NCBI RefSeq assembly: GCF_900774055.1
Contig: NZ_CAAGSW010000004.1
Location: 310,001 to 374,000 of the forward strand
Origin: Methanococcoides sp. AM1
GTDB lineage: Archaea; Halobacteriota; Methanosarcinia; Methanosarcinales; Methanosarcinaceae
Length of the DNA: 64,000 nucleotides
Direction of reading: 5' to 3'
Position 1 is the first letter of the stretch. Every line of letters starts with the position of its first letter. The notes below the pieces were generated by a model. It did no database searches. It was not told where the DNA came from and was given only the letters and a program-made list of their open reading frames with translations. Below are positions 35,915-62,330 of this stretch, piece by piece. The translations under genes were made by a program, and so were the position numbers.

Positions 35915-38900
35915 TCACGTAGTGATCCTGTTGTAAAGCATAGGAAGCCTTTCCGGAAGTGTAGCTGCATTATCGATTATAGTGTACCCTACATCCGAGA
36001 AGATGGAATCCAGATACTCACCTGCTTCACTGTCAACAGTAATACAGAAAAAGTGCATACCAAGTGCATTGCCTTCCTGTATTGCAACTCTTGTGTCCTC
36101 AATAGCCAGTTGACCTTCGTATTTACCATCAGCAAAACCAAGATCATAAGGATCACCATCTGAAAGCAGGACAAGAAGCTTGACCTTTGCATCGATTTCT
36201 TTAAGCTTTGAAATGGAATGCCTGATAACAGCACCCAACCTTGTGTTCATTGCAGGTTCAAGAGCACTTATCTTGCATTCAGCTTCCTCGGAGAAATTCT
36301 CGTTGAACTCTTTGATCGTATAGAATTCAACATCAGACCTTGTATTACCGGAAAAAGCTGCTATTGCATACTTATCTCCTATGCCCTCAAGTGCCTGGGT
36401 CATTATTATAAGTGAATCTTTTTCCACATCAAGTATCCGACGACCATTTCCCAGTTTCTTCCTCGTTGATGCACTCATGTCCAGAAGGAAAAGGGTGGCA
36501 ACATCCCTCTCACGCTTATCCCTTCTAATGTATAACCGGTCTGTTGGATTGATACCGCACTTCCTGTCAGTAAAGGCCTCGATCAAAGCATCAAGATCAA
36601 AATCATCCCCATCCAGTTGCCTGCGTAATTTACGGAAGGATTCCGGTTTCATCATCTTAAAGATACGATTGATCAGAGTGATCTCACGTGCATAATGCTC
36701 TCTGGCCCCAAGGTAGAATTCATTGTCATTTCCTGAAGGGGATACTTCATAGACAGTGCACCAGTCGTTCTTGTAGTCCTGCATGTGAGAATCCCATTCA
36801 TCATAACTGTAACTTCCAAGCACTTCCCAGTTCTTCGATCTTGCATATTCCGGCCCTTTGCCCGGCCTGTCCTCTATGAATTCTTCATCGTCCGGAAGGA
36901 TCGTCTGTGGAATAAAAGATTCCATTATCTGCTCCGTAAATTCTTCACTACGAGCTTGAGTGAGAGAGGATGAACCAACACCCATTCCACGATAGTCAAA
37001 ATTCCTTATAGGAACATATTCCAGTAATTCCAGGGGACCAAAACTATCAGTAAGCATTTCATAGATATCGATAGCTGCTTCAAGGGAATCAAGTGTGGAT
37101 GAATCAGGCTTGAAAACATTATTCACAAGCATTTCATGAGAAATATCAATAATTTCCTTGAGATCATCTTCAATTTCAAACGATGGTTCGATACTTACAG
37201 AGTAAAGTAAAAGAGCTTCTATGAACTTCCCAATACCGAATGCATCCGGAGTTCTGTTCTGTGACATCTGCATCCTTACTTTTTCAAACTCCCGGCGCAA
37301 TCCCCTGTAAAGGGATGTTGTCATGTACTCCACTCTTGCATCTTCTATAATTCCCATTATGTCGGCAGCAATGAATGGAGCTGGAAGTTTTCCGATAACG
37401 GATGCAACTACGGCGGACGTAACAACATGATCAACTCCCACATCCCCAGGAAGATCAAAGATGTCCATACCGACCTTATCGAGCAGTGGCAAAATATCCT
37501 TCAGCTCAAAGACCGAAGTTCCAAACTGGATGTGTCCTACTTCATGCATTACAGCCAACTTATAGATAGTGAAGTTCTCCTCGAAATCCCCATACCCTTT
37601 TACCGTAGGCTCCAGATAGATCGTCCTGCCAGAGACTATCGGATTAGGGTACTTGCTGAACTCTCCTGACAGGAAACTCTTTGAACGTATTGTGAAATTT
37701 ATACCTGAGATCCCCACTGAATAATACTTAAGGATCCTTGACACACGTTTAAGTGCCACACCACTCATCAGTTTTTCAGCAAATTCCGTTGCACCCTTTG
37801 ACTTAAGCGAGAAATAAGACCTGCCACTACCACGATCCCCTTCAAAAATGGAAATGCCCTTTTTTGCCCACTCATCGAGCTCTGTAACATCAAGGTCCTT
37901 TAACAATGCCGGGGAATTCCTGAAAAAGCTGAATGCCATTTCGCTGTCAATCTCAAAGACTTCAAAACCTATATGCACCCATCTTTCGATCTCCTTCGGA
38001 TGTATATTGAGCATGACATCCGACAGGATGGAGAAATAGATGCCTGCAAGCATTCCATTATTTTCTGCCAGAAGGTTTGCATTACTGAATATTGTCGAAT
38101 AGTATTTCCGATCCGTGCTCTTCAATACAGAAAGAGAACTGTGGAAATAGTTCGAGCCATAAAATGTCGAACTCTGTGAAATCCTCTCCCCAATAGAGAC
38201 CCACTTATCGAACTCCTTTTCTTTCAGATGAATTAAAATCACAGGTGCATTCTCAAAAAAGCTCCCAACACATCTCCAGCAAATGTTAGCTAATTGTGCA
38301 CCAATATCGATCAGAAGTCTTGTTTCTTCCCTGTCAGCCCGCAGAAGATCGTTTCCCAATCCCCTGAAAACTGCTTCATAGAAGGTCTTCGCAGCCTCTG
38401 GTTCGTCATGTGAAAAGAGCTCTTTGCCAATATCCACATATTCTCCAAGATCGTCAATGTTGATCCTGCCAATGAACTTTGGAGTGATCTTCAGGAATAA
38501 AGTGCCAACATCACTGTTCTCAAAGGCAAGTTCTTCCCCGAGATGAGACCATTTCCCAAAATCACTTCTGCTGAGTGTGGCTAATGCAAGAGGTGCACTG
38601 GTAAAGAATGTAAGGAACAGCTGAAGATCAATATTCCTGAATTCCTTTGAGGAGAGCAAAAGCAATTTTCTCTGGTGTTCCGGAAGAGCAGGAAGGACAA
38701 TCACAGTCTGCTCAATAAGCTCAATAGCAGTTCTCCATTTGTTGCCGGCAATCTCCCGTATCATCGGATACCAGATGGCTAAAAGTTCCGGTTCCATCAA
38801 AAGTCCAAGCTCTTCGATCTTTCCCAGAAATGCATTTCCGACACTGGAATTCAAAGAATTAAGTTCTGTGGCCAGTTCGACCAAACTACTGAAAGTGGCA

Positions 38901-39172
38901 GAACCGAGGTCAATAAATGCGGGAAAAGTTTCAGATAAATAGACATTTTCAAGACCCTTGTCCTTGTTAAGTGAATACATCCAGATAGAGAACCATTCTA
39001 CAAACCGGGATGGTTGTTTTCTGAAAAGTACAAGCCTTTCCAGAGGTATTTTTTCAAATTCAGCCGATATTTCAGAAATTTCCACATCTGACAGGTCCTC
39101 GAGCAGACCTGCTGAATCCAGGATATCAATTACATCATTAAGATGAACGACCTCCCCTTCATCCTGCGACAA
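35915..39172 (-). CDS. Large VWA-domain protein with HExxH motif (NorD/CobT-like), copy 1
   Basis: The 1085-residue protein has a long N-terminal helical part (about 1-500), a segment AVMHEVGHIQFG with HExxH at residues 543-547 and IMGIIEDARVEY downstream (possible third zinc ligand), and a C-terminal VWA domain with a MIDAS motif DMSAS near 900 (TLFLLDMSAST) plus LVLLSDGDPYD. VWA proteins next to MoxR ATPases (NorQ/NorD, CbbQ/CbbO, CobS/CobT) help activate or insert metals into enzymes. TTG 39172 is preceded by GGAGTGAAGG at the end of the MoxR gene, six bases upstream. It is one of two copies; the other is at 50375. The target is unknown. Confidence 0.8.
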   Translation of the reverse strand: MSQDEGEVVHLNDVIDILDSAGLLEDLSDVEISEISAEFEKIPLERLVLFRKQPSRFVEWFSIWMYSLNKDKGLENVYLSETFPAFIDLGSATFSSLVELATELNSLNSSVGNAFLGKIEELGLLMEPELLAIWYPMIREIAGNKWRTAIELIEQTVIVLPALPEHQRKLLLLSSKEFRNIDLQLFLTFFTSAPLALATLSRSDFGKWSHLGEELAFENSDVGTLFLKITPKFIGRINIDDLGEYVDIGKELFSHDEPEAAKTFYEAVFRGLGNDLLRADREETRLLIDIGAQLANICWRCVGSFFENAPVILIHLKEKEFDKWVSIGERISQSSTFYGSNYFHSSLSVLKSTDRKYYSTIFSNANLLAENNGMLAGIYFSILSDVMLNIHPKEIERWVHIGFEVFEIDSEMAFSFFRNSPALLKDLDVTELDEWAKKGISIFEGDRGSGRSYFSLKSKGATEFAEKLMSGVALKRVSRILKYYSVGISGINFTIRSKSFLSGEFSKYPNPIVSGRTIYLEPTVKGYGDFEENFTIYKLAVMHEVGHIQFGTSVFELKDILPLLDKVGMDIFDLPGDVGVDHVVTSAVVASVIGKLPAPFIAADIMGIIEDARVEYMTTSLYRGLRREFEKVRMQMSQNRTPDAFGIGKFIEALLLYSVSIEPSFEIEDDLKEIIDISHEMLVNNVFKPDSSTLDSLEAAIDIYEMLTDSFGPLELLEYVPIRNFDYRGMGVGSSSLTQARSEEFTEQIMESFIPQTILPDDEEFIEDRPGKGPEYARSKNWEVLGSYSYDEWDSHMQDYKNDWCTVYEVSPSGNDNEFYLGAREHYAREITLINRIFKMMKPESFRKLRRQLDGDDFDLDALIEAFTDRKCGINPTDRLYIRRDKRERDVATLFLLDMSASTRKKLGNGRRILDVEKDSLIIMTQALEGIGDKYAIAAFSGNTRSDVEFYTIKEFNENFSEEAECKISALEPAMNTRLGAVIRHSISKLKEIDAKVKLLVLLSDGDPYDLGFADGKYEGQLAIEDTRVAIQEGNALGMHFFCITVDSEAGEYLDSIFSDVGYTIIDNAATLPERLPMLYNRITT

Positions 39173-39178
39173 TTACCT

Positions 39179-40003
39179 TCACTCCATGATAGCTGATATG
39201 ATCTCATCCATGCTTTTCTGGAGGTCAGCATCATCGGTTATCGGCTTTACCATAGCAACCCTGCATGCTTCCCCCGGTCCTATCCCGGACCTGATAAGCA
39301 TGCCTGCATATATGAGAAGACGGGTGCTTACTCCTTCCTCAAGACCATGCTGCTTAAAATTACGTATGCGGTGTCCAATATCCACAAGGGTCCGGGCAGT
39401 TTCCTCATCCACTCCACTTTCATGAGCAACTATATCGGTTTCCAGTTCAGCCGGTGGATAGTCAAAGTCGATGGAAACAAATCTCTGCCTTGTGCTCTGC
39501 TTCAGATCCTTCAGCACACTCTGATATCCCGGGTTGTAGGAGATGGTCAGCATGAACTCAGGTGGTGCCTGAAGTACAATACCCATTTTCTCGATGGGCA
39601 TGATACGCCGGTCATCCGTAAGCGGATGAATTACTACTCTCGTATCCATCCTTGCTTCCACGAACTCATCAAGGTAACAGATAGCACCGTTCTTCAAAGC
39701 AGCTGTTAAGGGACCATCGTTCCATTCTGTTGATTCTCCTTTTATCAGGAACCTGCCAATAAGATCGTTAGCTGTCAGGTCCTCATGACAGGAGATCGTA
39801 ATAAGAGGACGCCCCAGTTCGTAGGCCATATATTCGATAAAACGTGTTTTCCCGCACCCGGTTGGTCCCTTAAGGCTGACAGGAAGTTTATTTTCATAAG
39901 CAGCCCTGAAGATCTCAACCTCATTTCCAACAGGAACGTAGTATGGTTCTTCTTTGATAACGCATTCTTCAACACGCTGCTGGGAACAAATAATATCGGT
40001 CAT
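39179..40003 (-). CDS. MoxR-family AAA ATPase (CbbQ/NorQ/CobS type), copy 1
   Basis: The 274-residue protein has Walker A GPTGCGKT (residues 46-53), the sensor-like [15 protein letters not shown], Walker [11 protein letters not shown], and [19 protein letters not shown] typical of CbbQ/NorQ/GvpN-type MoxR proteins. ATG 40003 (MTDIICSQQ) is chosen by comparison with the second copy, which has the same 274 residues; the upstream frame to 40102 is not conserved. It pairs with the VWA gene directly downstream. Such pairs form ATP-driven remodelling complexes. Confidence 0.9.
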
Positions 40004-40309
40004 TGGGATCACTCTCAAACTTTTTGATATAATTTTAGTGTTCAAAGTTGATAATGTTTTGCAGATGAAAGAGGTGGATCGAAAATAAAATAAGACAAAC
40101 AAATTGGAAAAATATTATTGAATTTTAGATAAAACTTAGATGAAATCTAGATGAATCCTAAATAAAAATAGTAGCGATCAAATAAAATGGTTAAAAGCAA
40201 AAAGAAGAAATTAAAAAAGACATTCCTTTTGCTGAATAAGTTCTGCCTAATATCAGATAAACCGAATGGATCGATCAAACAATCGATGAAGCAAACATTG
40301 GAAATCCAA

Positions 40310-41920: not shown

Positions 41921-43906
41921 TCAAACAAGGCCCCTGCGCCTCTCACTTCTGTACTCATCCACAAGATGCTTCAATTTCTTTTCTTTATCTTCCTGACGCT
42001 TTATCTCAGCTTCCTTTTCCCACTCATCCAGAGCCTCCTGAAGAAGAGCAGGGTCCACTACTGCAAGATCGTCAACTCTTTGCATCCTAACATTTTTAAG
42101 CAAAGGCAGATTTGCCCTGAAGAAAACATCTTCTGCAGCATAGGTCATATCCGAGGAAGTTATCACAGCACGAACACCCAATTCAACGACCATTGAAGCT
42201 GTCACTGTACTGCCACCACTTGCATCCTGAAGGAAAATGACATCACCTTTCTTGATGCCAAGACGATCCTTTATTTCTAAAATTGCCTCACGTGTAAAAG
42301 AAGGAAGTATTTTTACAGGGATCCCCTCACCCTTTATCTCCATCTTTCTTATCTGCTTCAGTTTCTTAATGTTGGAATAGGCCTTTTTTAACGACTTTTT
42401 AGACCTGCGCAGGTCCTTCTTCAGAGATGAGATCTTATGTTCACGTATCTCTATCTCCTTGTCCTTGCGGATCTGAAGATGGTTGGCTTTCCTCATATTC
42501 TCCAGCTTAAGTTCAAGTTTTGAGATACGCTTATCCTTTGACTTCAACTCCTTCTTGAGTTCCTGGAGATAATCTCTGAGATTGCTGATCTGAGTATCCT
42601 TTAACTTAAGTTTCTCTGAAATTTTCCTGTACCTTTCTTCAGTATCCTCATCAGGAGTTTCCAGAACCTTCACGGGCTTCTTTTCAGGAATCGGCACGCC
42701 GGAAACTTTCTCAATGGCTTCACCTATGGAAGCACCCTGGATCACATACAATTTGATCTTATCCATATCCAGATGAGAAGGCGCTTTCTTCTCAACACGC
42801 GAAAACATGTTCTTGTAATTCCGGTAAGCATAAAGAGCTGCAGCAAGAGAGTCACGTTCATGATCATTGGAATATCCAAAAGGCCTTCCAAGTGCTATCT
42901 TCTCCTCAGAGGAGATCTCAGCTGAAGGCATGTTTATCACAGCATTGAAGCTGCGCCTGATACGCTCCACAGAACCCGGTGTTGGCGTGACATCCGTAGC
43001 AATGACCGCAGGTTTCCCATACTCAGCAATAAGTTTGACAACTTCATCATGGGAAATACCACGAATACTTTTCAGAAGCAGAAGATCAGCATCGAAGGAG
43101 AGTATAGCTATTCCCACTGTGGTGCCAGGGTCTACCCCCACGATCGTAGGCCGCCTTTTGAGCTTATTTAAAGGAGTGTACTTGATCTTATCTCGCACCA
43201 CGTTACTTACACGGATCTGGGCATCCGCAGTGGAACCGGAACCAACGGGCACCTGATTCCTCTTTGCATATACTGTGAACTCAGCACGCACATAACCTCC
43301 GAACCCGCTGGAGATCCTGCTTGTGTACGTATAGCCGTGTTCCTTTGAAGCTTTCTTCAATATCGCCTCAACCTCACGGCTCCTTTCCCTCACAGCTCCG
43401 TGAACCTTACGACGATACCTGTTCTGGCTCCATCCACCACGCCCAAGGGAGCGGGCACGACTAACCTTGATCTTCGTGATGTCTTCAAAAAGGGATACTT
43501 CAGAGCCAACTCCCATGCTTGCAAGCCGTGCACATGCTTCTGCCTCCTCGTTGGGATCGAACTGGTTGAAGGACAGTCCATTTTCCTTTGCAAGATGTAA
43601 AAGGGATTTCTTGTGCAGACCGCCTGTAACCTGCACAAGCCTAACACCTTCAGGAAGTTTCTCAAGAAAACGCACAAGCTCCTTCTTGCCAGAAGCCAGT
43701 TCAAAAATGTTGTCCACTGCGATATACTCAGGATGCTCTTCGCGAACCAACTTCAATATACGCGGAAGGCGCACCATTTTATAATGGGTTACCTCCCCCT
43801 CTTTCAGCACAGCAACTGCATATCTTGGCAATTCCCGAGCCCTGGAAGAGCCTTTTGCAATGTCTATGCCGAATATTACCCCGGCTTTATAATCTGGATT
43901 TTGCAT
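41921..43906 (-). CDS. DUF460 family protein, RNase H-fold with coiled coil
   Basis: The 661-residue protein has an N-terminal RNase H-like unit (GVIFGIDIAKGSSRARELPRYA), a second one at about residue 255 (TIVGVDPGTTVGIAILSFDAD) with NDHERDSLAAALYAYRNYKN, then a coiled coil of about 110 residues (near 420-530, rich in Lys/Glu) and a C-terminal domain. This is the archaeal DUF460 family, predicted nucleases of unknown substrate. Acidic catalytic residues are kept. The gene stands alone on the minus strand. Confidence 0.85.
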   Translation of the reverse strand: MQNPDYKAGVIFGIDIAKGSSRARELPRYAVAVLKEGEVTHYKMVRLPRILKLVREEHPEYIAVDNIFELASGKKELVRFLEKLPEGVRLVQVTGGLHKKSLLHLAKENGLSFNQFDPNEEAEACARLASMGVGSEVSLFEDITKIKVSRARSLGRGGWSQNRYRRKVHGAVRERSREVEAILKKASKEHGYTYTSRISSGFGGYVRAEFTVYAKRNQVPVGSGSTADAQIRVSNVVRDKIKYTPLNKLKRRPTIVGVDPGTTVGIAILSFDADLLLLKSIRGISHDEVVKLIAEYGKPAVIATDVTPTPGSVERIRRSFNAVINMPSAEISSEEKIALGRPFGYSNDHERDSLAAALYAYRNYKNMFSRVEKKAPSHLDMDKIKLYVIQGASIGEAIEKVSGVPIPEKKPVKVLETPDEDTEERYRKISEKLKLKDTQISNLRDYLQELKKELKSKDKRISKLELKLENMRKANHLQIRKDKEIEIREHKISSLKKDLRRSKKSLKKAYSNIKKLKQIRKMEIKGEGIPVKILPSFTREAILEIKDRLGIKKGDVIFLQDASGGSTVTASMVVELGVRAVITSSDMTYAAEDVFFRANLPLLKNVRMQRVDDLAVVDPALLQEALDEWEKEAEIKRQEDKEKKLKHLVDEYRSERRRGLV

Positions 43907-49739: not shown

Positions 49740-50324
49740 TTAATCAACCAGAAATAATCCCCACCATTCAATTTTATCAGTTACAGGAAATTCGAGTTTT
49801 ATCCCCGCATTTTCCAGGGTCCCCACCACGTCTATACCCATACCTTCCATGGATGGCCTTGCACTAAACGGATGCCTGCAGTCCTCTCCTGCCCCTACAC
49901 ATTTGTCGCAATAAGTGCAGTCCCCTGCTGAGAATCCTGTAGCAAAACGATATCCGCTATTTAGTGCTTCCCCTTCAAGGGTTAGCAAGATATCGGAGAG
50001 TTGCCTTGCTTTCTTATTAAGCTCATGCTCTACAGAAGATGATTCCTGAAGGGACTGAGGTTTGGGCGGGTTCTTGTGTTCGACTGCAAGAACCATACCT
50101 ACCTCATATCTGGAAATGATCATCCTGACTTCTTCTACCGGGGGAAGGTTTGGCGGACATACCAGATCACCATAATGGTTGCATCTTGGCACCATGCACT
50201 TTAATCGGACACGTTCGTCAACAACAATGTCGGTTGCTTTTATAAGTGAAGCTCTTGTTGCACCATGTTGGAGTGCAAGGTTTACAAGTTTCTCTAATTG
50301 ACTTTTATCGCTTAAATTTTCCAT
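49740..50324 (-). CDS. DUF2284 family Cys-rich protein
   Basis: The 194-residue protein has CMVPRCNHYGDLVCPPNLPP near residue 45 and GDCTYCDKCVGAGEDC near 140, the pattern of predicted metal-binding DUF2284 proteins. ATG 50324 is chosen because AGGAGAG lies just upstream; the frame opens at 50342. The gene follows VWA copy 2 after 50 bases on the same strand and is probably its operon partner. A frameshifted copy lies at 44148-44734. Confidence 0.85.
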   Translation of the reverse strand: MENLSDKSQLEKLVNLALQHGATRASLIKATDIVVDERVRLKCMVPRCNHYGDLVCPPNLPPVEEVRMIISRYEVGMVLAVEHKNPPKPQSLQESSSVEHELNKKARQLSDILLTLEGEALNSGYRFATGFSAGDCTYCDKCVGAGEDCRHPFSARPSMEGMGIDVVGTLENAGIKLEFPVTDKIEWWGLFLVD

Positions 50325-50374
50325 TTTGCTCTCTCCTATCACTTAACGGTGATTTTAATTCAAGATCAACCATC

Positions 50375-53300
50375 TCAGGTTGTTATACGATTATAGAGAA
50401 TGGGAAGCCTTTCTGGAAGACTTGCAGCATTATCAATGATAGTGTATCCCACATCAGAAAATATTGAATCCATATAGTCACTTGCTTCAGTATCAACAGT
50501 GATACAGAAGAAATGCATCCCAAGAGTATTGCCTTCCTGAATGGCCATCCTTGTATCTTCAATAGCAATTTTCCCTGCATATTTACCTTCACCAAAACTA
50601 AGATCATAAGGTTCGCCATCAGATAGCAATACTAGAAGCTTTATTTTTGCATCAACCTGCTTTAGTTTTGTTATGGAATGCCTTATCGCAGTTCCCAGTC
50701 TTGTGTTGTATGCAGGTTCCAAAGCACCGATCTTACATTCCACATCCTCGGAGAATTTTTCATCAAAATCCTTTATGTTGTAGTATTCAACATCAGCTCT
50801 CGTATCACCAGAAAAAGCATAGATAGCATATTTGTCGCCTATGCTTTCCAGTGCCTCGATCATTATGACAAGAGCTTCTTTTTCTATATCCAGTATGCTT
50901 TTGCCATTATCCAGCTCTTTTTCTGTAGATGCACTTATATCTACAAGGAAAAGAGTAGCAACATCCCTTTCACGTTTGTCCCTTCGTATGTAAAGACGAT
51001 CAGTTGGATTTATTCCACATTTACGATCCGTGAAAGCTTCCGTGATTGCATCGAAATCGATCTCATCTCCATCCGTTTGTCTTCTTAACTTAGTAAATGA
51101 TTCAGGTTTCATCATTTTAAAAATGCGGTTTATGAGCGATATTTCAGGATTGTACTGCTCTATAGCATTCTGATAAAAATCATTGGATTCACCTATGGGC
51201 AAGACCTCATAAACTTTACACCACTCAGATTTGTAATCTTTAATTCGGGCATCCCATTCATCATAAATGTAATTCCCCAGTACGTCCCAGTTCATCGAAG
51301 TTGCGCATCTTGGACCAGATTGCAACTCATCCTGAATCATGGTGTCTTCATCCTGATCCAATAGCTTTTGCGGAATAAAGCGTTCTAGGATCTGTTCTGC
51401 AAACTCTTTTTCATTTTTCGGCATAGAAAAAAGTCCAGCTCCCTGCCCTCGGTACTCAAGGTTCCGAATAAAGTCATATTCCCTGGATTTCAGGGAACCC
51501 AAATTTTCTTCAAGCATGCTGTAGATCTCAAAAGTAACTTCAAGGGAGTCAAAAGTAGATGATGAAGACTGTAGGATTTTCTTTTCCAGCAAGTTACGGG
51601 TTTTTTCAAATGGTACTTTGAGTTCATCATCAATCTCAAATAATGGTTCATGCTCAATTGAGACCAGAAGCAAGGCCTCCATAAATTTTTCAAGTCTGCC
51701 TTCAGGATTTTGCCTGTCCAATAGCATTTGTTCCTTTACTTTTTTAAATTCCCTACGCAATCCCTTGTAAAGGTTCACAGTCTTATATTCAATCCGCGCA
51801 TCCTCCACTATTCCCATTATATCTGTTGTAACGAATGGATTTGGGAACATTCCTATTGCAGCTGAAAAATTAACCATTATCTCATTCTCTTCTACTTGTT
51901 TTCCCACATTCTCTGATTTGGATACATCTTTCTCCTTTTCGGCAAGATCTTTCAGGAATGTTGTGTCTGAATCTACTCCTATTTTTTCTAACAACGATAA
52001 TAAAGATCCAACAGTACATTTTGAAGTCCCGAATTGTGCATGCCCAACTTCATGCATTACACTCAGCTTATAAATATTGAAGTTCTCTTCAAAATCTCCG
52101 TACCCTTTCATTGTTGGTTCCAGATATATTACCCTGCCTGAAACTACCGGATGTGCGGACATAACATGTTCTTTCGGCAAAAGGTTATGTGATCGGATCA
52201 CAAAGTTAATTCCTGAGATCCCAAAAGCGTAATACTTCAGGACTTTAGATACCCTTTTGAGAGCGACACCACTCATCAAATGTTCAACGAACTCTCTTGA
52301 ACTTCTGGATCTTAATGAGAAATATAATCTGGCATTTGATGGATCTTTTTCAAATACTCGGAGTCCATTCATAGCCCACTCTTCAAGTTCTGTCACATCA
52401 AGATCTTCCAGCAACATCCGGGAATTTCGGAAATAACTGATCGCGATTTCCCGGTTTGTTTCAAATACGCGGATTCCTGTGTCCACCCATTTACCAATTT
52501 CCCTAGGATGCATATTCAATAAAATTTTCGGAATTTCGCTAAAGTAAATTCCTGCAAGTAAACTCTCTTTTTTAAGCAGCAAACAGGCATTCCTCAAAAT
52601 TGTCCCGCAATATTTCAAATTTGCATTTTTCAGTGTAACAAAAGAATTACTATAATAATCCGAACCATAAAAAGTACTTTCTTCTGCAATATTTTCACCA
52701 ATAACCACCCATTTCGCAAAATCTTTTGCTGAGAGTTCTGCGAGAACTTCAGGGGCATTTTCAAAGAAACTTTGGACACATTTCCAGTTTACAATTGCAA
52801 GAGAGGCACCAATATCGAGCAAATATGATCTTTCGTATTTGTTTGTTTTCTCAAATGAATTTTCCAATCCACTGAAACTTCCCTTTAAAAATGCATTTGC
52901 AATCTGTGGATCGCTTTTCAGCAATTTCTTCCCTTTTTTCACCCATTTCAACAATTCTACCATTTCCAGATTCTTAAGCATCTTGGGAGTCATTTTCAGG
53001 AAAAGTATCGCAATCTCTGTATTTTCCCCAGTTAGATCTAATGTTATTGCTTCCCATATCTTGAAATCGGAATCATCGAGAATAGCCATTGCTAAAGGTG
53101 CATTATCAAAAAAAGAAAGTGAAGTTTGTAAATCAAGCTCATTGAGTTTTTCCAACGATAATAGAAGTTTTCCACGCTGTTGGAGGGGGATAACTGAAAA
53201 TATGTTCTTTGTTCGTTTGATCAATTCAATTGCCACTTTTTTATCTTTGCTGGCAATATCCTTGATCACAGATTGCCATAACCGAGAAAGTTTCGGATCC

Positions 53301-53398
53301 ATTAGGGGCATGACTTCCGAGAGGTATCGTTGATAATTTCTTTCAACCATTGGATCCATAGCTTTCAATTTTCCGTTATTTTTGGACAAAGACCTCAC
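50375..53398 (-). CDS. Large VWA-domain protein with HExxH motif (NorD/CobT-like), copy 2
   Basis: The 1007-residue protein has the same plan as copy 1 (35915-39172): helical N-terminus, [10 protein letters not shown] with HExxH at residues 449-453, [12 protein letters not shown], and a C-terminal VWA domain with DISAS near residue 820 and [11 protein letters not shown]. It is about 80 residues shorter at the N-terminus. GTG 53398 overlaps the MoxR gene stop by four bases, so the two are coupled. Differences from copy 1 are spread along the protein, so the duplication is old. It lies beside the methyltransferase genes. Confidence 0.8.
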
Positions 53399-54219
53399 TC
53401 CACAATAGCAGAAACTATCTCTTCTATGCTTTTCTGGAGATCATGATCATCGGTGATCGGTTTGATCATTGCTACTTTACATGCTTCCTTTGAATTGATG
53501 CCGGATTTGATCAGCATTCCAGTATAGATCAAAAGACGTGTGCTGACCCCTTCTTCAAGACCGTGTTGCTTGAAATTCCGTATTCTCTGCCCGATCTCTA
53601 CTAGGGTCCGGGCATTCTCTTTATCAATTCCACTTTCATGTGCCACGATTTCAGTCTCAAGTTCCGCAGGTGGATACTCAAAGTCCATAGCTACGAATCT
53701 TTGGCGCGTACTTTGCTTGAGATCCTTTAAAACACTCTGATATCCGGGATTATAGGAAATAGACATCATGAATTCGTTGGGAGCAGGAAGTATTATCCCC
53801 AGCTTATCAATAGGCATGATGCGCCTGTCATCTGTGAGAGGGTGTATGACAACTCTAGTATCCATTCTTGCTTCCACGAACTCATCAAGATAACAGATCG
53901 AACCGGACCTTACACCTTTTGTGAGAGGACCATCGTTCCATTCGGTAGATTCTCCCTTTATAAGGAACCTTCCGATAAGGTCGCTCGCTGTAAGATCCTC
54001 ATGGCAGGATATTGTTATAAGCGGACGTTTTAACTTATAGGCCATGTATTCCATAAAACGTGTTTTACCACAACCTGTGGGACCTTTCAGGTTAACGGGA
54101 AGGTTGTTTTCATAGGCTGCAGTGAATATTTCAACTTCATCACCGATCGGAAGATAGTAGGGCTCTTCCGTGATGATGTATTCTTCAACAGGTTGTTCCA
54201 CACAAATTATTTTTTTCAT
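53395..54219 (-). CDS. MoxR-family AAA ATPase (CbbQ/NorQ/CobS type), copy 2
   Basis: The 274-residue protein has [38 protein letters not shown] and [19 protein letters not shown] and is closely similar along its whole length to copy 1, with the same length. ATG 54219 with GGTGA upstream is chosen over GTG 54228. It starts an operon with the VWA and DUF2284 genes, preceded by a small winged-helix gene 22 bases upstream. Confidence 0.9.
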
Positions 54220-54241
54220 CGTTATCACCCTTATTCAATTC

Positions 54242-54472
54242 CTAAAAGTGTCCAGACCAACCGGAAACGAGACTATATTCACTTTCCATTACATTATCAC
54301 TGTTATTCACACATTCAACTATACCCTCTTTTTTGAGCTGAACAATTTGTGGAATAAGTTTTCTGGCACATGGTCGCTTAGTTAATGAATGTACTATTTC
54401 CCTCAAAGTAAGTGGTTTGTTAGCAGATACAAGAGCTTTGATAACTCCGCGTTGTACATATGAAAGATACAT
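54242..54472 (-). CDS. Small winged-helix DNA-binding protein
   Basis: The 76-residue protein has a winged-helix pattern: YVQRGVIKALVSANKPLTLREIVHSL, then LIPQIVQLKKEGIVECVN. The frame extends to 54514, but GGAGG six bases before ATG 54472 decides the start. It directly precedes MoxR copy 2 and may regulate that operon. Confidence 0.7.
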   Translation of the reverse strand: MYLSYVQRGVIKALVSANKPLTLREIVHSLTKRPCARKLIPQIVQLKKEGIVECVNNSDNVMESEYSLVSGWSGHF

Positions 54473-54670
54473 GCGTTCCTCCGACTTTTTTGCGATCAGA
54501 ACATAGAGGTTCATTCAGGAACAAGAATCTCTGAAATAATTTGTAGGTGAAGGGAGAAGGTTTTGATAAGGAATCATTGATTCCATGGGAATTATCAAAA
54601 CCTTCTAAAGGGGTTGTAAGGTAGCATGGTGCAATTAAAACAAAATTACACCAAAACTTTCCGACTTCAC

Positions 54671-56050
54671 TTAAAATTCGAATTCCATACCAAGATCTGA
54701 CAGTTTGGCCTTCGATTTAGCCCAAAGGTCTTCGAATTCTTTGGATGGGCGAACCTTTTCGATGTCATAGCATTCCTGGAATGTCTTGCCCTTTGGAACA
54801 TTGCCAGATTTTAAAGCATCTGCATATGTTTTCTCGAGTTCAACACAGAATTCGTTCATATCGGCTAGGCTCATCTTAGCAGCTGCAATTCCAATTTCTG
54901 CAGTGATACGAGCATCCATTCCAGAAAATACATCAACTCCAGTTCCACAGGTAGCTGCAGCACCAGAGAGGATATCATTGCCTGCTGCAGTTATTGCACC
55001 TGCATACACTGCAATCTCATCAATCTCCATTTCAGTACACATTCCAGAAAGTGGGAAGACATAGTTTGCATAAAGACCCTTAGTGTTTCTCTTTAATGCA
55101 GCTCCGGTGTATGCCGAAACAAATGTTGGGGCAGCACTTGAACCTTCACCTGTCATTGGGTGGAATGGAGGACAGACCGAGTAGGCTGGGCCACCAAGCA
55201 TGATATATGAAACAATACCCTCAGCAACATTTGCGATAGCAGTTGTTGCAGGTCCACCGGTGTAACCGCCCATAACCGGGCACATGCAGCCTTCTACAAC
55301 GTAGTTGTTCTGAGTTGTACTGACAACTTTCTTAAGAACATCCCAATCAACCTTCATATCGTTCAAGAGACAAACAAGGTGCTGGTCTTCAGGACGTACT
55401 GCACCAGGCCCATCTCCAAAGATCTGTCCTTCACTGGTAACTGCAGACATGATACTTTGCATTGGCATCCCCGGCCTTCCAGCCATGCGCAAACCCTCTC
55501 GGGCCCATACGGCTTCAGCTCTTGCACCGAGCATCTCACTAGGAGACCTTGCTTTCAGCTCCATTCCATGAATGGTTGCAACTGTACCACATAGAACTCC
55601 TCCAACAAGGGGTTCTTTTGCAACAGATTCTACGAATTTGGAATAGTATTGCTCGCTGATCACACCACCATTAGCACCTCCAAATACGACAGGTGCTCTT
55701 TTATCGCCAACTTTCCTCTGAACTACCTTAAGTGCATCATTACCAATTCCGTATTTTTTTTCACCTGGCAAAATCCGAAGATTGGCTTTTATTTCGCTTT
55801 CCTCAAGTTTAATCGCGCTACTGGTGTTTATGTTATAAACGCCTACATCGGTAACGAGGTCCATGGCTGCCTTGAATATGGAATCGACCATGTCCATGTC
55901 CTGGGGAACAATTTCATCCGGCCTATATTCGATGTCATATTCTTTTGCAAGTTCATTAAGTCTTTGAGGAAGGATTCTGTTATCAAAATTCTTCTCTTCA
56001 ATCTTATCAGCGGTAATAAATCGATCATAAATATCTAGGATGTCTAACAT
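54671..56050 (-). CDS. MtmB-family methyltransferase homologue without pyrrolysine
   Basis: The 459-residue protein follows monomethylamine methyltransferase MtmB along its length (MtmB: 458 residues), ending GKTFQECYDIEKVRPSKEFE like MtmB. At the pyrrolysine position, MtmB AGRPGMGV(Pyl)GPE corresponds to AGRPGMPMQSIM here: Gln198, codon CAA at 55457-55459. No amber codon occurs in the gene. MtmB uses pyrrolysine to bind monomethylamine, so this protein probably uses another substrate or chemistry. ATG 56050 is preferred to GTG 56059 because GAGGTGG precedes it. It lies 14 bases after a corrinoid-protein gene, its likely partner. The substrate is unknown. Confidence 0.85.
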   Translation of the reverse strand: MLDILDIYDRFITADKIEEKNFDNRILPQRLNELAKEYDIEYRPDEIVPQDMDMVDSIFKAAMDLVTDVGVYNINTSSAIKLEESEIKANLRILPGEKKYGIGNDALKVVQRKVGDKRAPVVFGGANGGVISEQYYSKFVESVAKEPLVGGVLCGTVATIHGMELKARSPSEMLGARAEAVWAREGLRMAGRPGMPMQSIMSAVTSEGQIFGDGPGAVRPEDQHLVCLLNDMKVDWDVLKKVVSTTQNNYVVEGCMCPVMGGYTGGPATTAIANVAEGIVSYIMLGGPAYSVCPPFHPMTGEGSSAAPTFVSAYTGAALKRNTKGLYANYVFPLSGMCTEMEIDEIAVYAGAITAAGNDILSGAAATCGTGVDVFSGMDARITAEIGIAAAKMSLADMNEFCVELEKTYADALKSGNVPKGKTFQECYDIEKVRPSKEFEDLWAKSKAKLSDLGMEFEF

Positions 56051-56064
56051 TTTATCCACCTCGT

Positions 56065-56715
56065 TTATTTGGATACCATTTTATTTGCGGCTCTCACAGC
56101 ATCGGCTGCATTAACAGCATACGCATCTGCATCGATGCCATCAGCATAATCCTGAGTAACAGGTGCTCCTCCGATCATCACTTTATGGTTGTCCCTGATG
56201 CCCAGTCCTTCCAGCAGCTTGACAATATCGCCAAGGTATGGCATGGTAGTGCTCATCAGTGCAGAACCAGAAATAATATCTGCATTTCTGTCTTTTGCTG
56301 TCTGAACCATTGTTGCAACAGGTACATCTCTGCCAAGGTCAATAACTTCAAAACCCCCAGCCCTCAGCATACCTGCAACAATATTCTTTCCGAGGTCATG
56401 GATATCTCCTTCAATCGTTCCTATGACAACAGTACCTTTCGTAGCAGATGATTCTCCTTTTTCAGAAATCTTTGCAGACAGCTCCTTAGTTGATGCATCC
56501 ATCATATCTGCTGCGATCATGACCTGTGGTAGGTAGTATTCCATCCTTTCAAATTTTTTTCCTACTTCAGTCAAGCCATCGGCCAACTTGTTTAACAGTT
56601 CAACAGGATCAAAATCGTTACTGATCCATTCTTTAACAGTTTCAGCTGTCTTATCTTCGTTGATTTCCACAATCGCATCATATGCTTTTTTAAGCAAATC
56701 TTCCTTTGATGACAT
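56065..56715 (-). CDS. Corrinoid protein (MtmC/MttC/MtbC family)
   Basis: The 216-residue protein has a helical N-terminal domain and the cobalamin-binding motif GDIHDLGKN with cobalt-ligand His106, then SGSALMSTTMP and MIGGAPVTQDYADGIDADAY. It carries the methyl group on a corrinoid cofactor between a substrate methyltransferase and a coenzyme M methyltransferase. AAGGAGGATATAAA before ATG 56715 is a strong ribosome site. It is followed by the Pyl-free MtmB homologue and is divergent from the Pyl-free MttB homologue. Confidence 0.92.
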   Translation of the reverse strand: MSSKEDLLKKAYDAIVEINEDKTAETVKEWISNDFDPVELLNKLADGLTEVGKKFERMEYYLPQVMIAADMMDASTKELSAKISEKGESSATKGTVVIGTIEGDIHDLGKNIVAGMLRAGGFEVIDLGRDVPVATMVQTAKDRNADIISGSALMSTTMPYLGDIVKLLEGLGIRDNHKVMIGGAPVTQDYADGIDADAYAVNAADAVRAANKMVSK

Positions 56716-57093: not shown

Positions 57094-58536
57094 ATGCTAA
57101 AAGGTTTGCAGAATAAGATGAGTGGGAAGTTACAGTTTCTTTCAGACGAAGATTGTGAGAAGATCCATTATGCATCGCTTGAGGTGCTAAGAGACGTAGG
57201 TCTAAAAATTGAATCAAGATATGCATTGGATGCATTGGAGGGGATGGGGTGTGATGTGAGCAAGCGAACTTCAATAGTTAAGTTTCCTAATTACCTTGTT
57301 GAAGACTGCTTACGAGCTTGCCCCCATTCAGTTAAATTGTATGGACTGGACTCAAAGTACAATATTAATGTTGAAAAAAAGAGAACTTATGTATCTACTG
57401 GTTCAGGTTATGGAGTAATTGACGAAAAGAACAATATGGCCAGAGCTGGAACTTTAAAAGACGTCAGAGACGCTACCCTGATTGCCCACCACCTAGATAA
57501 CATTCATTCAATAGTCCCACCAATGATGGGAGTTTCTGACATCCCCTCAAATATTGCAACACCTACCATAGTATCTGAAACATTGAAATACACTAACAAA
57601 ACCATTGAGTTTTACCTGACCGGGGCTCCAGAGTCTAAAAATGAAGTTGATAGCCTCATTTCTTTATGTGAATTGGTTGCAGGAGGCCCTGCAAATCTAA
57701 AGAGACGCCCATTTGCGATGCTTGCTTTTGATCCATCTTCCCCATTAGCATATTTAGAGGATCATATCATGTCTATGTTTAAGTGCATAGATGCAGGAAT
57801 ACCTGTCACAATTATGCCTGGTGTTGTTGGTGGTGCCACTGCACCCATAACTATCTCAGGAATACTTGTTCAGAGTAATGCTGAATTCCTTGGCGGCGTA
57901 GTACTTGCAAATATAGCCCAGAAAGGTGCATCAGTTCTTTACGGGCATTACAATTCAATAATGAATATGCAAACGGGAAACTACTCTGCCGGCTCAGTGG
58001 AGATGGGAATCATAGGATCTTGTGTAGCACAGCTAGGGAATTGGTACGGTATTCCAACAAACGGTTTTTTCCCAATGTCTGATTCCCATATCCCCGATCA
58101 ACAAGTCGGTTATGAAAAAATGATGCAATGGACCCTTTCAACTCTAGGAGGCATGAATTATTTAAGCGGAGCAGGAAATGTCGAAAACGGCACTATGATC
58201 TCACTTGAACAACTTGTAATTGACAACGAGGTTGTCGGAATGGTCGATCGCATGCTCAAAGGTGTTCAAGTTGATGACGAAAGGATAGGGATGGATACCA
58301 TCAGCAAAGTCGGACCAGGGGGAAGTTACTTTAAACAGACACATACATTAAAATGGTCCGGAGATGAGTGTTTTTCACCCAGAATAAGTGAAAAGGAATC
58401 GTTTTCAAGCTGGAGTGGGGAGAACGTCATAACAAAAGCGAAAGCAGAAGTTGACGTAATATTGCATGATGTTGAAACTCCTGTGCATAAAGATATAATT
58501 AAAGATATTGAAATTTTCCAGAAAGGGTTGCGTTGA
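57094..58536 (+). CDS. MttB-superfamily methyltransferase without pyrrolysine
   Basis: The 480-residue protein follows MttB: FLSDEDCEKIHYASLEVLRDVG near the start, STGSGYGVID, GVVGGATAPITISG and MISLEQLVIDNEVVGM. Around the pyrrolysine site, Mtt[11 protein letters not shown](Pyl)ADAKIPD aligns with YGIPTNGFFPMSDSHIPD here; Met328 (ATG 58075-58077) replaces pyrrolysine. Pyl-free relatives demethylate quaternary amines such as glycine betaine (MtgB) or tetramethylammonium (MtqB) in other organisms, so such a compound is the likely substrate; it cannot be named from sequence. The corrinoid partner may be the divergent protein at 56065. AGGAGG precedes the ATG. Confidence 0.88.
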   Translation: MLKGLQNKMSGKLQFLSDEDCEKIHYASLEVLRDVGLKIESRYALDALEGMGCDVSKRTSIVKFPNYLVEDCLRACPHSVKLYGLDSKYNINVEKKRTYVSTGSGYGVIDEKNNMARAGTLKDVRDATLIAHHLDNIHSIVPPMMGVSDIPSNIATPTIVSETLKYTNKTIEFYLTGAPESKNEVDSLISLCELVAGGPANLKRRPFAMLAFDPSSPLAYLEDHIMSMFKCIDAGIPVTIMPGVVGGATAPITISGILVQSNAEFLGGVVLANIAQKGASVLYGHYNSIMNMQTGNYSAGSVEMGIIGSCVAQLGNWYGIPTNGFFPMSDSHIPDQQVGYEKMMQWTLSTLGGMNYLSGAGNVENGTMISLEQLVIDNEVVGMVDRMLKGVQVDDERIGMDTISKVGPGGSYFKQTHTLKWSGDECFSPRISEKESFSSWSGENVITKAKAEVDVILHDVETPVHKDIIKDIEIFQKGLR

Positions 58537-58975
58537 AAAGCAACTACTTTTTTGTTTGGTAAATCTTAGATGATATTTAACTTTAAACCTTAAATTACTA
58601 TTTGGTTGTATACAAATATTAGACCATCGCACGTGGAACTTTTTTGTTAGCAGGGTTTCCTAAGTCGTTCTTTTCCTTTTTTTTCATTAGATATAAAGTT
58701 TACTATTTTAAAAAGTACTATATAAATGTTATTGAATAAAGTATATATATTAATGAAACAGTGCTGACATATGCAAGAAAACTAATTAGGAAATAAACAA
58801 AAGCAAAAAATTATGGATGTTGAAAATGTATTATTCATTCATCTAGAATTATTGTTTTTGATAAACTATCAAGCCTAATTTACTAATCTTGCACCTATTG
58901 GCCAAAATGTCACCAATTTAGTTTCACAGAATGGTGAGCTTTCTGGTCAAAAAAAGGAAAAGGAGTGAAAGTAAC
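58537..58975. other. Intergenic region before mttB
   Basis: No gene is seen. TATA-like sequences ACTATATAAATG (58716-58727) and AAGTATATATATTAATG (58739-58755) suggest that mttB has its own promoter with a long leader. TTGGCCAA (58898-58905) is an 8-base palindrome. GGAGTG before ATG 58976 is the ribosome site. Confidence 0.45.
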
Positions 58976-60466
58976 ATGAAAGAACATTACTATCCCGGAC
59001 AGTATCCCCTGAATGGTGTAGAACTCAATTTGTTAACACAAGATGATTTGAGAAGAATTCACTATGCAACCATAGATGTATTTCTGGACCCGGGAGTACA
59101 GGTTTCTGATCCAGAAGCAAGGCAAATCTTTAAAGAAGCAGGTTGCGAAGTCGATGAGAGGACTCAGAATGTCAAGATCCCTGAATTTCTCGTTAATAGA
59201 GCACTTATGGATGCACCATCAAGATTTGTCCTTTGGGGACGTGACAAGAAAAATAATACCAAACTAGAACACAAGGGTAAAGTGAACTGGACCTGTTTCG
59301 GTGTCGGCGTTAAGATGTGCAACTATGAGGCGCCTGGCAAGTTCACAACAGTAGATTCCGTTGAAGAAGATATTGCAAAGACCGCAAAGGTCTGTGACTG
59401 GGCAGACAACATTGATTTCTATTCACTGGCAGTTTCTGCAAGAGATTGGGCAGGTAAAGGTGCACAGGATGTACACGAGACATTCACACCAATTATGAGT
59501 ACCTCCAAACACTTCCATCACCTTGACCCTGTTGGAGAAAACGTAGAGCATTATATGGACATCGTTTATGCATACTATGGCGGAGATAAAGAAGAAGCAC
59601 GTAAAAAACCAATATTCTCCATGCTCCTCTGTCCAACCAGCCCACTTGAACTCAGTGTTAATGCATGCCAGGTCATCATCAAAGGTGCACGAGACGGAAC
59701 TCCTGTTAATGTTCTAAGTATGGCAATGTCCGGTGGCTCTTCACCAGTTTTCCGTGCAGGTACCCTTGTTACCCACAATGCAGAAGTCCTTGCCGGTATC
59801 GTACTTGCAGAGTTAGTAGAACCCGGAACTCCTGTATTCTATGGAAGCTCTACCACCACATTCGACCTGAAGAGAGGAACTGCACCAGTCGGTGCACCTG
59901 AACTTGGCCTGATCAGTGCAACAGTCGGCAAACTTGCACAGTACTATGGCCTTCCTTCCTATGTAGCATCCGGATAGGCAGATGCTAAGATACCTGATCC
60001 CCAGGCAGCTCATGAAAAGACAATGACAATGCTTCTTCCTGCACTTTCAGGCTGTAATGCCCTCTATGGACTGGGAATGCTTGAACTAGGTATGACATTC
60101 TCTCTTGAGCAGCTTGTTCTTGACAACGATATGGCAGAAATGACCAAATACGCAATGCGTGGAATAGACGTCAGTGATCTTACTCTGGGAGTAGAATCCA
60201 TCAGAAAGGTTGGAATCGGTAACAATTTCCTTGCACATAAACAGACCAGGGAATACATCGACGTTGTTTCTGATCCTAGACTATTCAATAGGGATATGTA
60301 TGGTGACTGGGAAGCTGCAGGTTCCAAGGACATAGTAACTGTTGCACATGAAGTTGTTGTTGATGTGCTCAAAAACCATGAAGTTACACCAATTGATGCC
60401 GACCTGGTCAAAGATATGAAAGCAGTAGTGGACAAGGCCGATGAAGCTTTCAGAGCCACTATGTAA
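58976..60466 (+). CDS. mttB: Trimethylamine:corrinoid methyltransferase with in-frame amber (pyrrolysine)
   Basis: The frame of 497 codons is interrupted once by TAG at 59975-59977. From ATG 58976 ([24 protein letters not shown] upstream) this is residue 334, the pyrrolysine position known in MttB. The sequence continues in frame as [18 protein letters not shown] to a TAA stop, total 496 residues with pyrrolysine (Methanosarcina MttB: 495). MttB transfers a methyl group from trimethylamine to MttC. ATG 58931 is in frame but its extra 15 residues (many Lys/Arg) are not MttB-like. mttC follows after 28 bases. Confidence 0.95.
59975..59977 (+). other. Pyrrolysine (amber) codon of mttB
   Basis: The codon TAG lies between GCATCCGGA and GCAGATGCT with conserved MttB sequence on both sides, so it is decoded as pyrrolysine rather than stop. 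The host must therefore have pylT, pylS and pylBCD elsewhere. Confidence 0.95.
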
Positions 60467-60494: not shown

Positions 60495-61145
60495 ATGGTT
60501 ACACAGGATGGAATTAATGCAAAAGCAAAAAAAGCAGTCATGGACTTTGATGAAGAAGCAGTAGAAGAAGTATGCAAAGAAGCAATCGCTGCAGGTGTTG
60601 ACGTAGTTTCCCTTATTCAGGACGGTCTTACCGCAGGTATGAACGAAGTGGGAGACCAGTTCGAGCAGGGTACTCTTTTCCTTCCACACGTCATTGCAGC
60701 ATCCGAAGCAATGAGTGCTGGTGTCGCAGTACTTACCCCTGTCCTTGAGGCACAGGGTGGATCTGTAAAATCCAAGGGAACAGTTGTCATCGGTACCATC
60801 GAGGGTGACATCCACTCCATCGGTAAGGACATTGTCGCAACAATGCTCAAGATCGCTGGATTCAAGGTCGTTGACCTCGGCAGAGATGTTGCAATCGGCG
60901 CATACGTCGATGCAGTCAAGGAACACAACCCACTTGTAGTCGGTTCTTCTGCACTCATGACCACAACAATGGTCCTTCAGATGCAGATCGAAGAACAGCT
61001 CAAGGAAGCTGGTGTCCGTGACACTGTCATGACCATGGTCGGTGGCGCACCTGTCACACAGGACTGGGCAGACAAGATCGGCTCAGACATCTATGCTGAG
61101 AACGCAACAGACGCAGTCGTTAAATGTAACGCAGCTGCTGAGTAA
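60495..61145 (+). CDS. mttC: Trimethylamine corrinoid protein
   Basis: The 216-residue protein has the corrinoid motif GDIHSIGKD with His107, SSALMTTTMV and VGGAPVTQDWADKIGSDIYAENA. It accepts the methyl group from MttB and passes it to the coenzyme M methyltransferase MtbA. A strong AGGAGG lies before ATG 60495. It is cotranscribed with mttB in related organisms. Confidence 0.93.
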   Translation: MVTQDGINAKAKKAVMDFDEEAVEEVCKEAIAAGVDVVSLIQDGLTAGMNEVGDQFEQGTLFLPHVIAASEAMSAGVAVLTPVLEAQGGSVKSKGTVVIGTIEGDIHSIGKDIVATMLKIAGFKVVDLGRDVAIGAYVDAVKEHNPLVVGSSALMTTTMVLQMQIEEQLKEAGVRDTVMTMVGGAPVTQDWADKIGSDIYAENATDAVVKCNAAAE

Positions 61146-61277: not shown

Positions 61278-62330
61278 TTGGATGTTCAAGAGCTGAGGCG
61301 ATTAGAAATTAAAAGGAGATTTAATAGCGGATATATGTGGGCTCTCTTTTGTGCAGTTTTGTGGGCCATGTGGTACATTCCGGGTACTATTATCTGGGCG
61401 GTTCCGCCTTTCGATGTTATGTGGACTGAAATTGCACTTCCCGACTATTCCAATGCTTCAATGGCAACCGTCATAGTTGCTATGTTGATTACTGCATTTA
61501 ATGCGTTGACAGTTATGATTGCCCTATTAGTATGGAACGGAGTGCTTGGTAAGTTCGGTGAAATAAAGAGAACTCTCAAGGCAATGAAACCCTGTAGCAA
61601 ATGGTTTTTTGCTGCTTCCATATTTGGTGGCCCTGTTGCAATTATGGGCGCATTTCTGGCAATAGGATTCGTGGGAGCAGCTTTCGGAGCAGTTGCAGCC
61701 CTCCTATACCCGGTAACAGGATCTATTCTCGCCTACTTGTGGTACGGTGAGAAATTGAGTAAAAGAGCAATCATTGGTATTGTTGTTATCATTATGGGTG
61801 GTGTCATTCTCTTTGGCGGAGGTCTTTACGCAGAACTCGCAAGTGGAAGTGCTGGCTGGATTGGTTATGTTGGTGGTCTCATGGCAGCTGTTGGTTGGGG
61901 AATTGAAGGTGCAATTGCAGGCAAGGGCCTAGATATTGCAGAACCCGATGTAGGCATCACCATTAGATTCCTTGGTGAAAACATTATATGGTGGCTTATT
62001 CTCATACCTATTGTTGCACTGGCTGGTTTCCCAATTTTCGAATATGCAATTGAAGCACTGAACCCGCTATCTATCCTCATACTGTCATTTGCCGGCATCA
62101 CTTTTGGCTACTGCTATGTTTGCTGGTACAAGTCATTCCCACTGGTCGGCGTGGGGCGTGGACAAGGAGTGGCAAATCTGAGTGGACTTTGTGCTGTGAT
62201 CTTTATTTATTTGTTCTTTGGCACCGTACCTGCATGGACCGTATGGGTAGGTGCAGTTCTATGTGTCATTGGCAGTTTCATCATGTTCTTTGAAGATAAC
62301 GGTGAACTCGAATCACTTAGGGGTGAATAA
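61278..62330 (+). CDS. mttP: MttP-like permease (methylamine cluster)
   Basis: The 350-residue protein has about ten membrane segments and resembles the MttP permease of Methanosarcina methylamine operons (DMT/EamA-like fold). Its substrate is thought to be trimethylamine but has not been proven. TTG 61278 is the start, with CGGAGG 9 bases upstream; the next in-frame ATG is 19 codons later, inside the first helix. It lies between mttC and a winged-helix gene. A truncated copy lies at 44839-45389. Confidence 0.88.
   Translation: MDVQELRRLEIKRRFNSGYMWALFCAVLWAMWYIPGTIIWAVPPFDVMWTEIALPDYSNASMATVIVAMLITAFNALTVMIALLVWNGVLGKFGEIKRTLKAMKPCSKWFFAASIFGGPVAIMGAFLAIGFVGAAFGAVAALLYPVTGSILAYLWYGEKLSKRAIIGIVVIIMGGVILFGGGLYAELASGSAGWIGYVGGLMAAVGWGIEGAIAGKGLDIAEPDVGITIRFLGENIIWWLILIPIVALAGFPIFEYAIEALNPLSILILSFAGITFGYCYVCWYKSFPLVGVGRGQGVANLSGLCAVIFIYLFFGTVPAWTVWVGAVLCVIGSFIMFFEDNGELESLRGE

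Follow-up and report, generated by a model that had tools for sequence, protein, structure and literature searches.

The window analysed here, 64,000 nucleotides from Methanococcoides sp. AM1, carries on its minus strand a gene for a methyltransferase of the MtmB type (positions 54671 to 56050). The encoded protein has 459 residues when translated from the ATG at 56050 and 462 residues when translated from an in-frame GTG at 56059. Its sole Pfam match was the MtmB family PF05369, with 359.2 bits against a curated cut-off of 25 and over positions 1 to 450 of the 450-position profile; it belonged neither to the MTTB family of Pfam nor to COG5598. In an alignment with M. barkeri MtmB (1l2q), residues 3 to 460 were covered with an E value of 2.4e-73, and 1tv2 was matched as well. 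An AlphaFold model built with ten relatives as input (pLDDT 89.9, pTM 0.91) superimposed on the solved MtmB structures 1tv2, 1l2q, and 1nth with TM scores of 0.95 to 0.96 and an rmsd of 1.5 Å. The full-length match, at 31 to 33% identity to M. barkeri MtmB (1l2q/1nth), and the predicted TIM-barrel fold of the MtmB type place the protein in the MtmB family, and a chance resemblance to MtmB can be excluded.

A gene for a corrinoid protein of 216 amino acids (56065 to 56715, minus strand) lies directly upstream, its stop codon 14 bp before the ATG of the methyltransferase gene, as the first-pass annotation of this locus had indicated. The product contains both B12-binding domains (PF02310 and PF02607) and the corrinoid-ligand motif DIHDLG. 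It reached 213.8 bits with TIGR02370, just below the cut-off of 215.3, and 211 bits with NF041607 (MtbC), for which the cut-off is 350; judged by these scores, it is close to the methylamine corrinoid subfamily, yet stays under the cut-offs of the named equivalogs. Both genes are under strong purifying selection, with dN/dS values relative to the nearest orthologue of ~0.12 for the methyltransferase gene and ~0.07 for the corrinoid gene, which are rough as dS was near saturation.

The first-pass annotation had described the methyltransferase as an MtmB homologue with glutamine in place of pyrrolysine and without an amber codon. The residue was identified correctly: the codon at the pyrrolysine site is CAA (55457 to 55459, minus strand), specifying Gln198 when counted from the ATG and residue 201 when counted from the GTG, and no in-frame TAG is present within the reading frame. 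An ungapped block places MAGRPGMPMQ opposite MAGRPGMGVX of M. barkeri MtmB (1l2q), where X is Pyl202, and in an alignment of 32 sequences the amber codons of 14/14 Pyl-MtmBs fell in the single column occupied by the CAA codon of the window gene. In the AlphaFold model, Gln198 is located on a short predicted β-strand (residues 197 and 198). The glutamine is, however, not a functional signature. In the seven members of the clade described below, the pyrrolysine column holds Q, V, I, T, L, T, and T, the valine being found in an orthologue with 77% identity (genome G021). A role of Gln198 as a catalytic stand-in for pyrrolysine was therefore rejected.

Residues E229, E259, and Q333 of M. barkeri MtmB, which we take to be the residues around pyrrolysine, were invariant in all 14 Pyl-MtmBs aligned. 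The window protein has L, C, and Y at these positions, and the clade as a whole differs from Pyl-MtmB in the same way: E229 is replaced by L or T, E259 by Cys followed by Met in 7/7 members, and Q333 by Tyr in 6/7. As the pyrrolysine column is variable and the changes at E229, E259, and Q333 are concerted, the pocket was remodelled as a whole, with Gln being merely the residue found in AM1. The missing pyrrolysine is not due to a lack of the machinery for its incorporation, since AM1 carries pylS (on contig C2, not the contig of the window) and two Pyl-MtmB genes.

Close relatives of the window protein were found among 112 genomes of the family in G021 (77% identity), G018 (54%), Methanosarcina sp. 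KYL-1 (G096, 47%), and G005 (three copies, 42 to 44%), and the remaining matches were Pyl-MtmBs (30 to 34%) and other non-Pyl MtmBs (31 to 33%). In a phylogenetic tree with long branches and limited sampling, the window protein fell into a clade of seven members from five genomes that was supported by values of 100/99 and was sister to Pyl-MtmB; the outer limits of this clade are not drawn by the tree, as the sampling excluded the bacterial and Asgard members named in PMC13044021. A scan of further genome contigs yielded one relative, that of Methanosarcina sp. KYL-1 (47%), and a phylum-wide search of 394 genomes yielded no extra clade members; G005 was not among the matches of the latter search, either because it was not sampled or because it fell outside the sampling. 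A corrinoid gene adjoins all seven clade members. It is directly upstream in six of them, with AM1, G021, G018, KYL-1, and G005 among the hosts, and downstream of the seventh (G005, C99a), which shares it with a tandem copy. The AM1 corrinoid protein is 74, 56, 51, 48, and 47% identical to the corrinoid proteins beside the other clade members and 43 to 44% identical to MttC and MtbC of AM1. The family, the predicted fold, the position of the pyrrolysine column, the pocket substitutions, and the conserved pairing with a corrinoid gene were thus all established for the AM1 protein itself. Clade members with 42 to 54% identity may act on other substrates.

AM1 possesses two non-Pyl MtmBs in all. 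The second one (L003:1486-2856) shares the Pfam MtmB family and the absence of pyrrolysine with the window protein, but belongs to a separate clade, has Met at the pyrrolysine column, retains E229, has Gly at position 259, and lacks an adjacent corrinoid gene in AM1. Its orthologues (L061, L062, and L074 to L078) occur in most Methanococcoides and in some other genera. Genes in KYL-1 (L005:5575-6930) and in G018 (L114:11366-12733), both of which adjoin methyltransferase genes, represent a third group of non-Pyl proteins resembling MtmB, which is very divergent (26 to 27% identity to the window protein).

Pyl-free relatives of MtmB had no known function before March 2026, and the genes for direct methanogenesis from choline and tetramethylammonium were missing. 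MtqB of Methanococcoides methylutens Q3c, together with its partner MtqC, then became the first non-Pyl MtmB for which a function was described (PMC13044021; Front Microbiol, 19 March 2026), based on assays, proteomics, and the gene order mtqC (ACT9XH_RS04770) followed by mtqB (ACT9XH_RS04775). Recombinant Q3c MtqB methylated cob(I)alamin at 37 nmol/min/mg with tetramethylammonium (QMA), 42 nmol/min/mg with choline, and 11 nmol/min/mg with monomethylamine (MMA), and was inactive with trimethylamine (TMA) or glycine betaine. Q3c MtqBC is the counterpart of MtqBC from strain NaT1, which has since been lost (Asakawa et al. 1998, as cited in later work). According to PMC13044021, Q3c MtqB has homologues in Methanococcoides SA1 (87% identity) and Methanococcoides AM1 (78%); a Pyl-free MtmB pair is thus already known, with its AM1 homologue cited. 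The window gene fits this AM1 homologue, since the other non-Pyl MtmB of AM1 has no corrinoid neighbour, belongs to another clade, and occurs in most of the genus.

We consider it highly probable (about 0.88) that the pair in the window represents MtqB and MtqC of AM1, which would transfer a methyl group from choline and/or tetramethylammonium to its own corrinoid protein in a pyrrolysine-free manner. Like Q3c MtqB, the window protein is a non-Pyl member of the MtmB family from the same genus and is encoded immediately downstream of a corrinoid gene. The probable orthology is drawn from the identity of 78% stated in PMC13044021 and from gene order. The Q3c enzyme was assayed, whereas the AM1 protein is known here from its sequence, so that the substrate and the reaction of the AM1 pair would be those carried over from the published counterpart. 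The biochemistry of that counterpart with choline and QMA (PMC13044021) supports the proposal of the first-pass annotation that the pair uses a different substrate than MtmB. AM1, an isolate from Aarhus Bay, forms methane from choline (PMC6498239, PMC6331629); the published assembly (2.48 Mbp, 46 contigs, N50 of 433,016 bp; PMC6498239) agrees with the genome analysed here (2,482,578 bp, 46 contigs). M. burtonii and the type strain of M. methylutens use dimethylethanolamine and not choline (PMC4239356), and the mtqB clade was not found in the putative M. burtonii genome G017 within the search of 112 family genomes. The choline phenotype thus matches the presence of the clade, on the thin evidence of one positive and one negative genome.

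The diversity of the clade (42 to 77% identity, with three copies in G005) and its variable pyrrolysine column would also suit a paralogue of Q3c MtqBC that kept the chemistry of the family and acts mainly on, e.g., N,N-dimethylethanolamine, monomethylethanolamine, or another quaternary amine, and choline-using Methanococcoides strains indeed also consume di- and monomethylethanolamine intermediates (PMC7374477). We regard this as unlikely. It is an AM1 protein to which Q3c MtqB is 78% identical, and this gene is the only one in AM1 that shows the mtqC-mtqB arrangement; moreover, the clade is absent from the putative M. burtonii genome G017, although M. burtonii uses dimethylethanolamine.

The first-pass annotation had also assumed that MtmB needs pyrrolysine for monomethylamine. 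This does not hold absolutely within the family, as Q3c MtqB retains weak activity with MMA (PMC13044021), and the AM1 protein could accordingly be imagined as a pyrrolysine-independent methyltransferase for monomethylamine. AM1 already has its two Pyl-MtmBs, however, and the MMA activity of the Q3c enzyme reached only ~1/4 to 1/3 of the rates with choline and QMA, which makes such a function improbable to a higher degree than that of a paralogue with another main substrate. The loss of the catalytic residue might even suggest a decaying or misannotated MtmB whose amber codon was lost and which has no specific function. This is contradicted by the conservation data: the gene is full-length and has the low, if rough, dN/dS value given above, its product is predicted with high confidence to adopt the MtmB fold, the concerted pocket changes are kept in seven proteins from five genomes, and the corrinoid partner is conserved. 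We consider decay to have hardly any likelihood.

For an MtqBC function of the AM1 pair, the quaternary amine (choline and/or tetramethylammonium) would bind inside the MtqB barrel, where Co(I) of MtqC would attack a methyl group of the substrate. From the resulting methyl-MtqC, an MtbA-type enzyme would pass the methyl group on to coenzyme M. The MtqB pocket, which has lost the acidic and amide residues around pyrrolysine and gained Cys, Met, and Tyr, could bind the cation directly. We propose that pyrrolysine is dispensable in MtqB because the quaternary N+ would already be a good leaving group and would not need a pyrrolysine adduct. The reasoning that no such adduct is needed to activate a quaternary N+ is established for MtgB. 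MtgB and other non-Pyl quaternary-amine methyltransferases of the MttB superfamily are likewise Pyl-free, with a quaternary amine as methyl donor and a corrinoid acceptor, but MtgB (9yce) is a member of the COG5598 family and shows only ~12% identity and a TM score of ~0.53 to the window protein. In PMC13044021, docking pointed to sulfur-containing and aromatic residues, with which the Cys, Met, and Tyr close to the substrate are consistent.

Divergently oriented from mtqC, the plus strand encodes a non-Pyl methyltransferase of the MttB superfamily (57094 to 58536; 480 amino acids; PF06253, 291 bits; TIGR02369, 377 bits against a cut-off of 525). Homologues travel with mtqBC, beside or near it, in G018 (84%) and G021 (61%), another one (60%) accompanies cutCD in G025, and one with 51% identity is present in G017. 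The enzyme possibly catalyses a second step and is a candidate for the demethylation of dimethylethanolamine or glycine betaine. It is followed on the same strand by genes for a Pyl-MttB (trimethylamine methyltransferase; 58931 to 60466), in which an in-frame TAG at codon 349 was read through in translation, an MttC corrinoid protein (60495 to 61145; TIGR02370, 270 bits, above the cut-off), and an MttP-like permease (61278 to 62330; EamA, PF00892), a 73% identical homologue of which adjoins mtqBC in G021. Directly downstream of mtqB in AM1, G021, and G018 lies a gene for a small possible regulator (54242 to 54514, minus strand, in AM1; 90 amino acids), which looks HTH-like by eye and had no Pfam match. 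Genes for a CbbQ/NorQ-like AAA+ ATPase, a VWA protein of 1000 residues, and a DUF2284 protein were found downstream of mtqBC in AM1 (window 49740 to 54514) and G021, and CbbQ-VWA also occurs near clade genes in G005. The notion that the AAA+/VWA pair is a dedicated activator of MtqBC was weakened, as the ATPase is present in 47/112 family genomes and the unlinked CbbQ genes inspected (G003, G032, and G028) had no relatives of the window's methyltransferase genes nearby. A second CbbQ-VWA copy lies ~14 kb away in AM1 (window 35915 to 40102), and many genomes of the family carry the cassette.

In AM1, mtqBC is part of an insertion of ~26 kb between a DUF460 gene (window 41921 to 43906) and rio2 (G000:C4:380025-380915), which also holds the non-Pyl MttB, Pyl-MttB, MttC, MttP-like permease, and MtbC genes. 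Q3c mtqB, in contrast, was described as lying downstream of the Pyl operon (PMC13044021), a location different from that in AM1, where pylS is on another contig. The rio2-DUF460 interval contains 8 to 26 kb of quaternary-amine and methylamine genes in three Methanococcoides and is empty in two, G020 (putative strain MM1) and G018, where rio2 and DUF460 are 45 bp apart (L036, L112, L113, L118, and L119). In G021 it holds the genes nonPyl-mttB, DUF2284, VWA, CbbQ, HTH, mtqB, mtqC, and mttP, and in G025 nonPyl-mttB, mttP, and HTH, followed by cutC and cutD. The G025 CutC (choline TMA-lyase) reached 1673 bits, the cut-off being 1050, and could be aligned from end to end with choline TMA-lyases of solved structure, and CutD (activase) scored 506 bits against 360. 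The two genes (L113:71-3336; L120, G025:C10:40963-44336) are located on a 230-kb contig beside core genes shared with AM1, and G025 was the only one of the 112 family genomes in which cutC was detected. Judged by these genes, the G025 methanogen may cleave choline itself, and their presence in the same slot lends circumstantial support to choline as a substrate handled from there. A limited literature search on cutC and Methanococcoides returned no report of cutC in a methanogen; one study dealt with a bacterial CutC in co-cultures that included Methanococcoides, and another reported that cold-seep samples lacked CutCD.

The AM1 pair is not a new type of system, but the window independently reveals mtqBC in a choline-using isolate. 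What is added here is that the pyrrolysine site can hold different residues, with the surrounding acid residues being lost, and, as new findings, the genomic slot of mtqBC between rio2 and DUF460 in AM1 and a second species and the presence of cutCD at this site in a third. Tentatively, and with more doubt than confidence, the interval may be viewed as an exchange site for quaternary-amine cassettes, in which the methyltransferase encoded at 57094 to 58536 would demethylate the dimethylethanolamine formed by MtqB and so complete choline use. If this were true, related methanogens would have gained two chemically unrelated solutions for one substrate at one locus, one of them a lyase of the bacterial type, by which a methanogen produces TMA for itself.

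Two minor features were also observed. A perfect inverted repeat (15 bp, with a loop of 22 nt) is located ~65 bp past the mtqB stop codon of AM1 (54555 to 54606) and possibly marks a transcript end. In G005 (L040, contig C92), an mtqB-mtqC pair is flanked by two Pyl-MttB-like/MttC cassettes with nearly equal identity to MttB and MttC of AM1, an arrangement that looks like a duplication.
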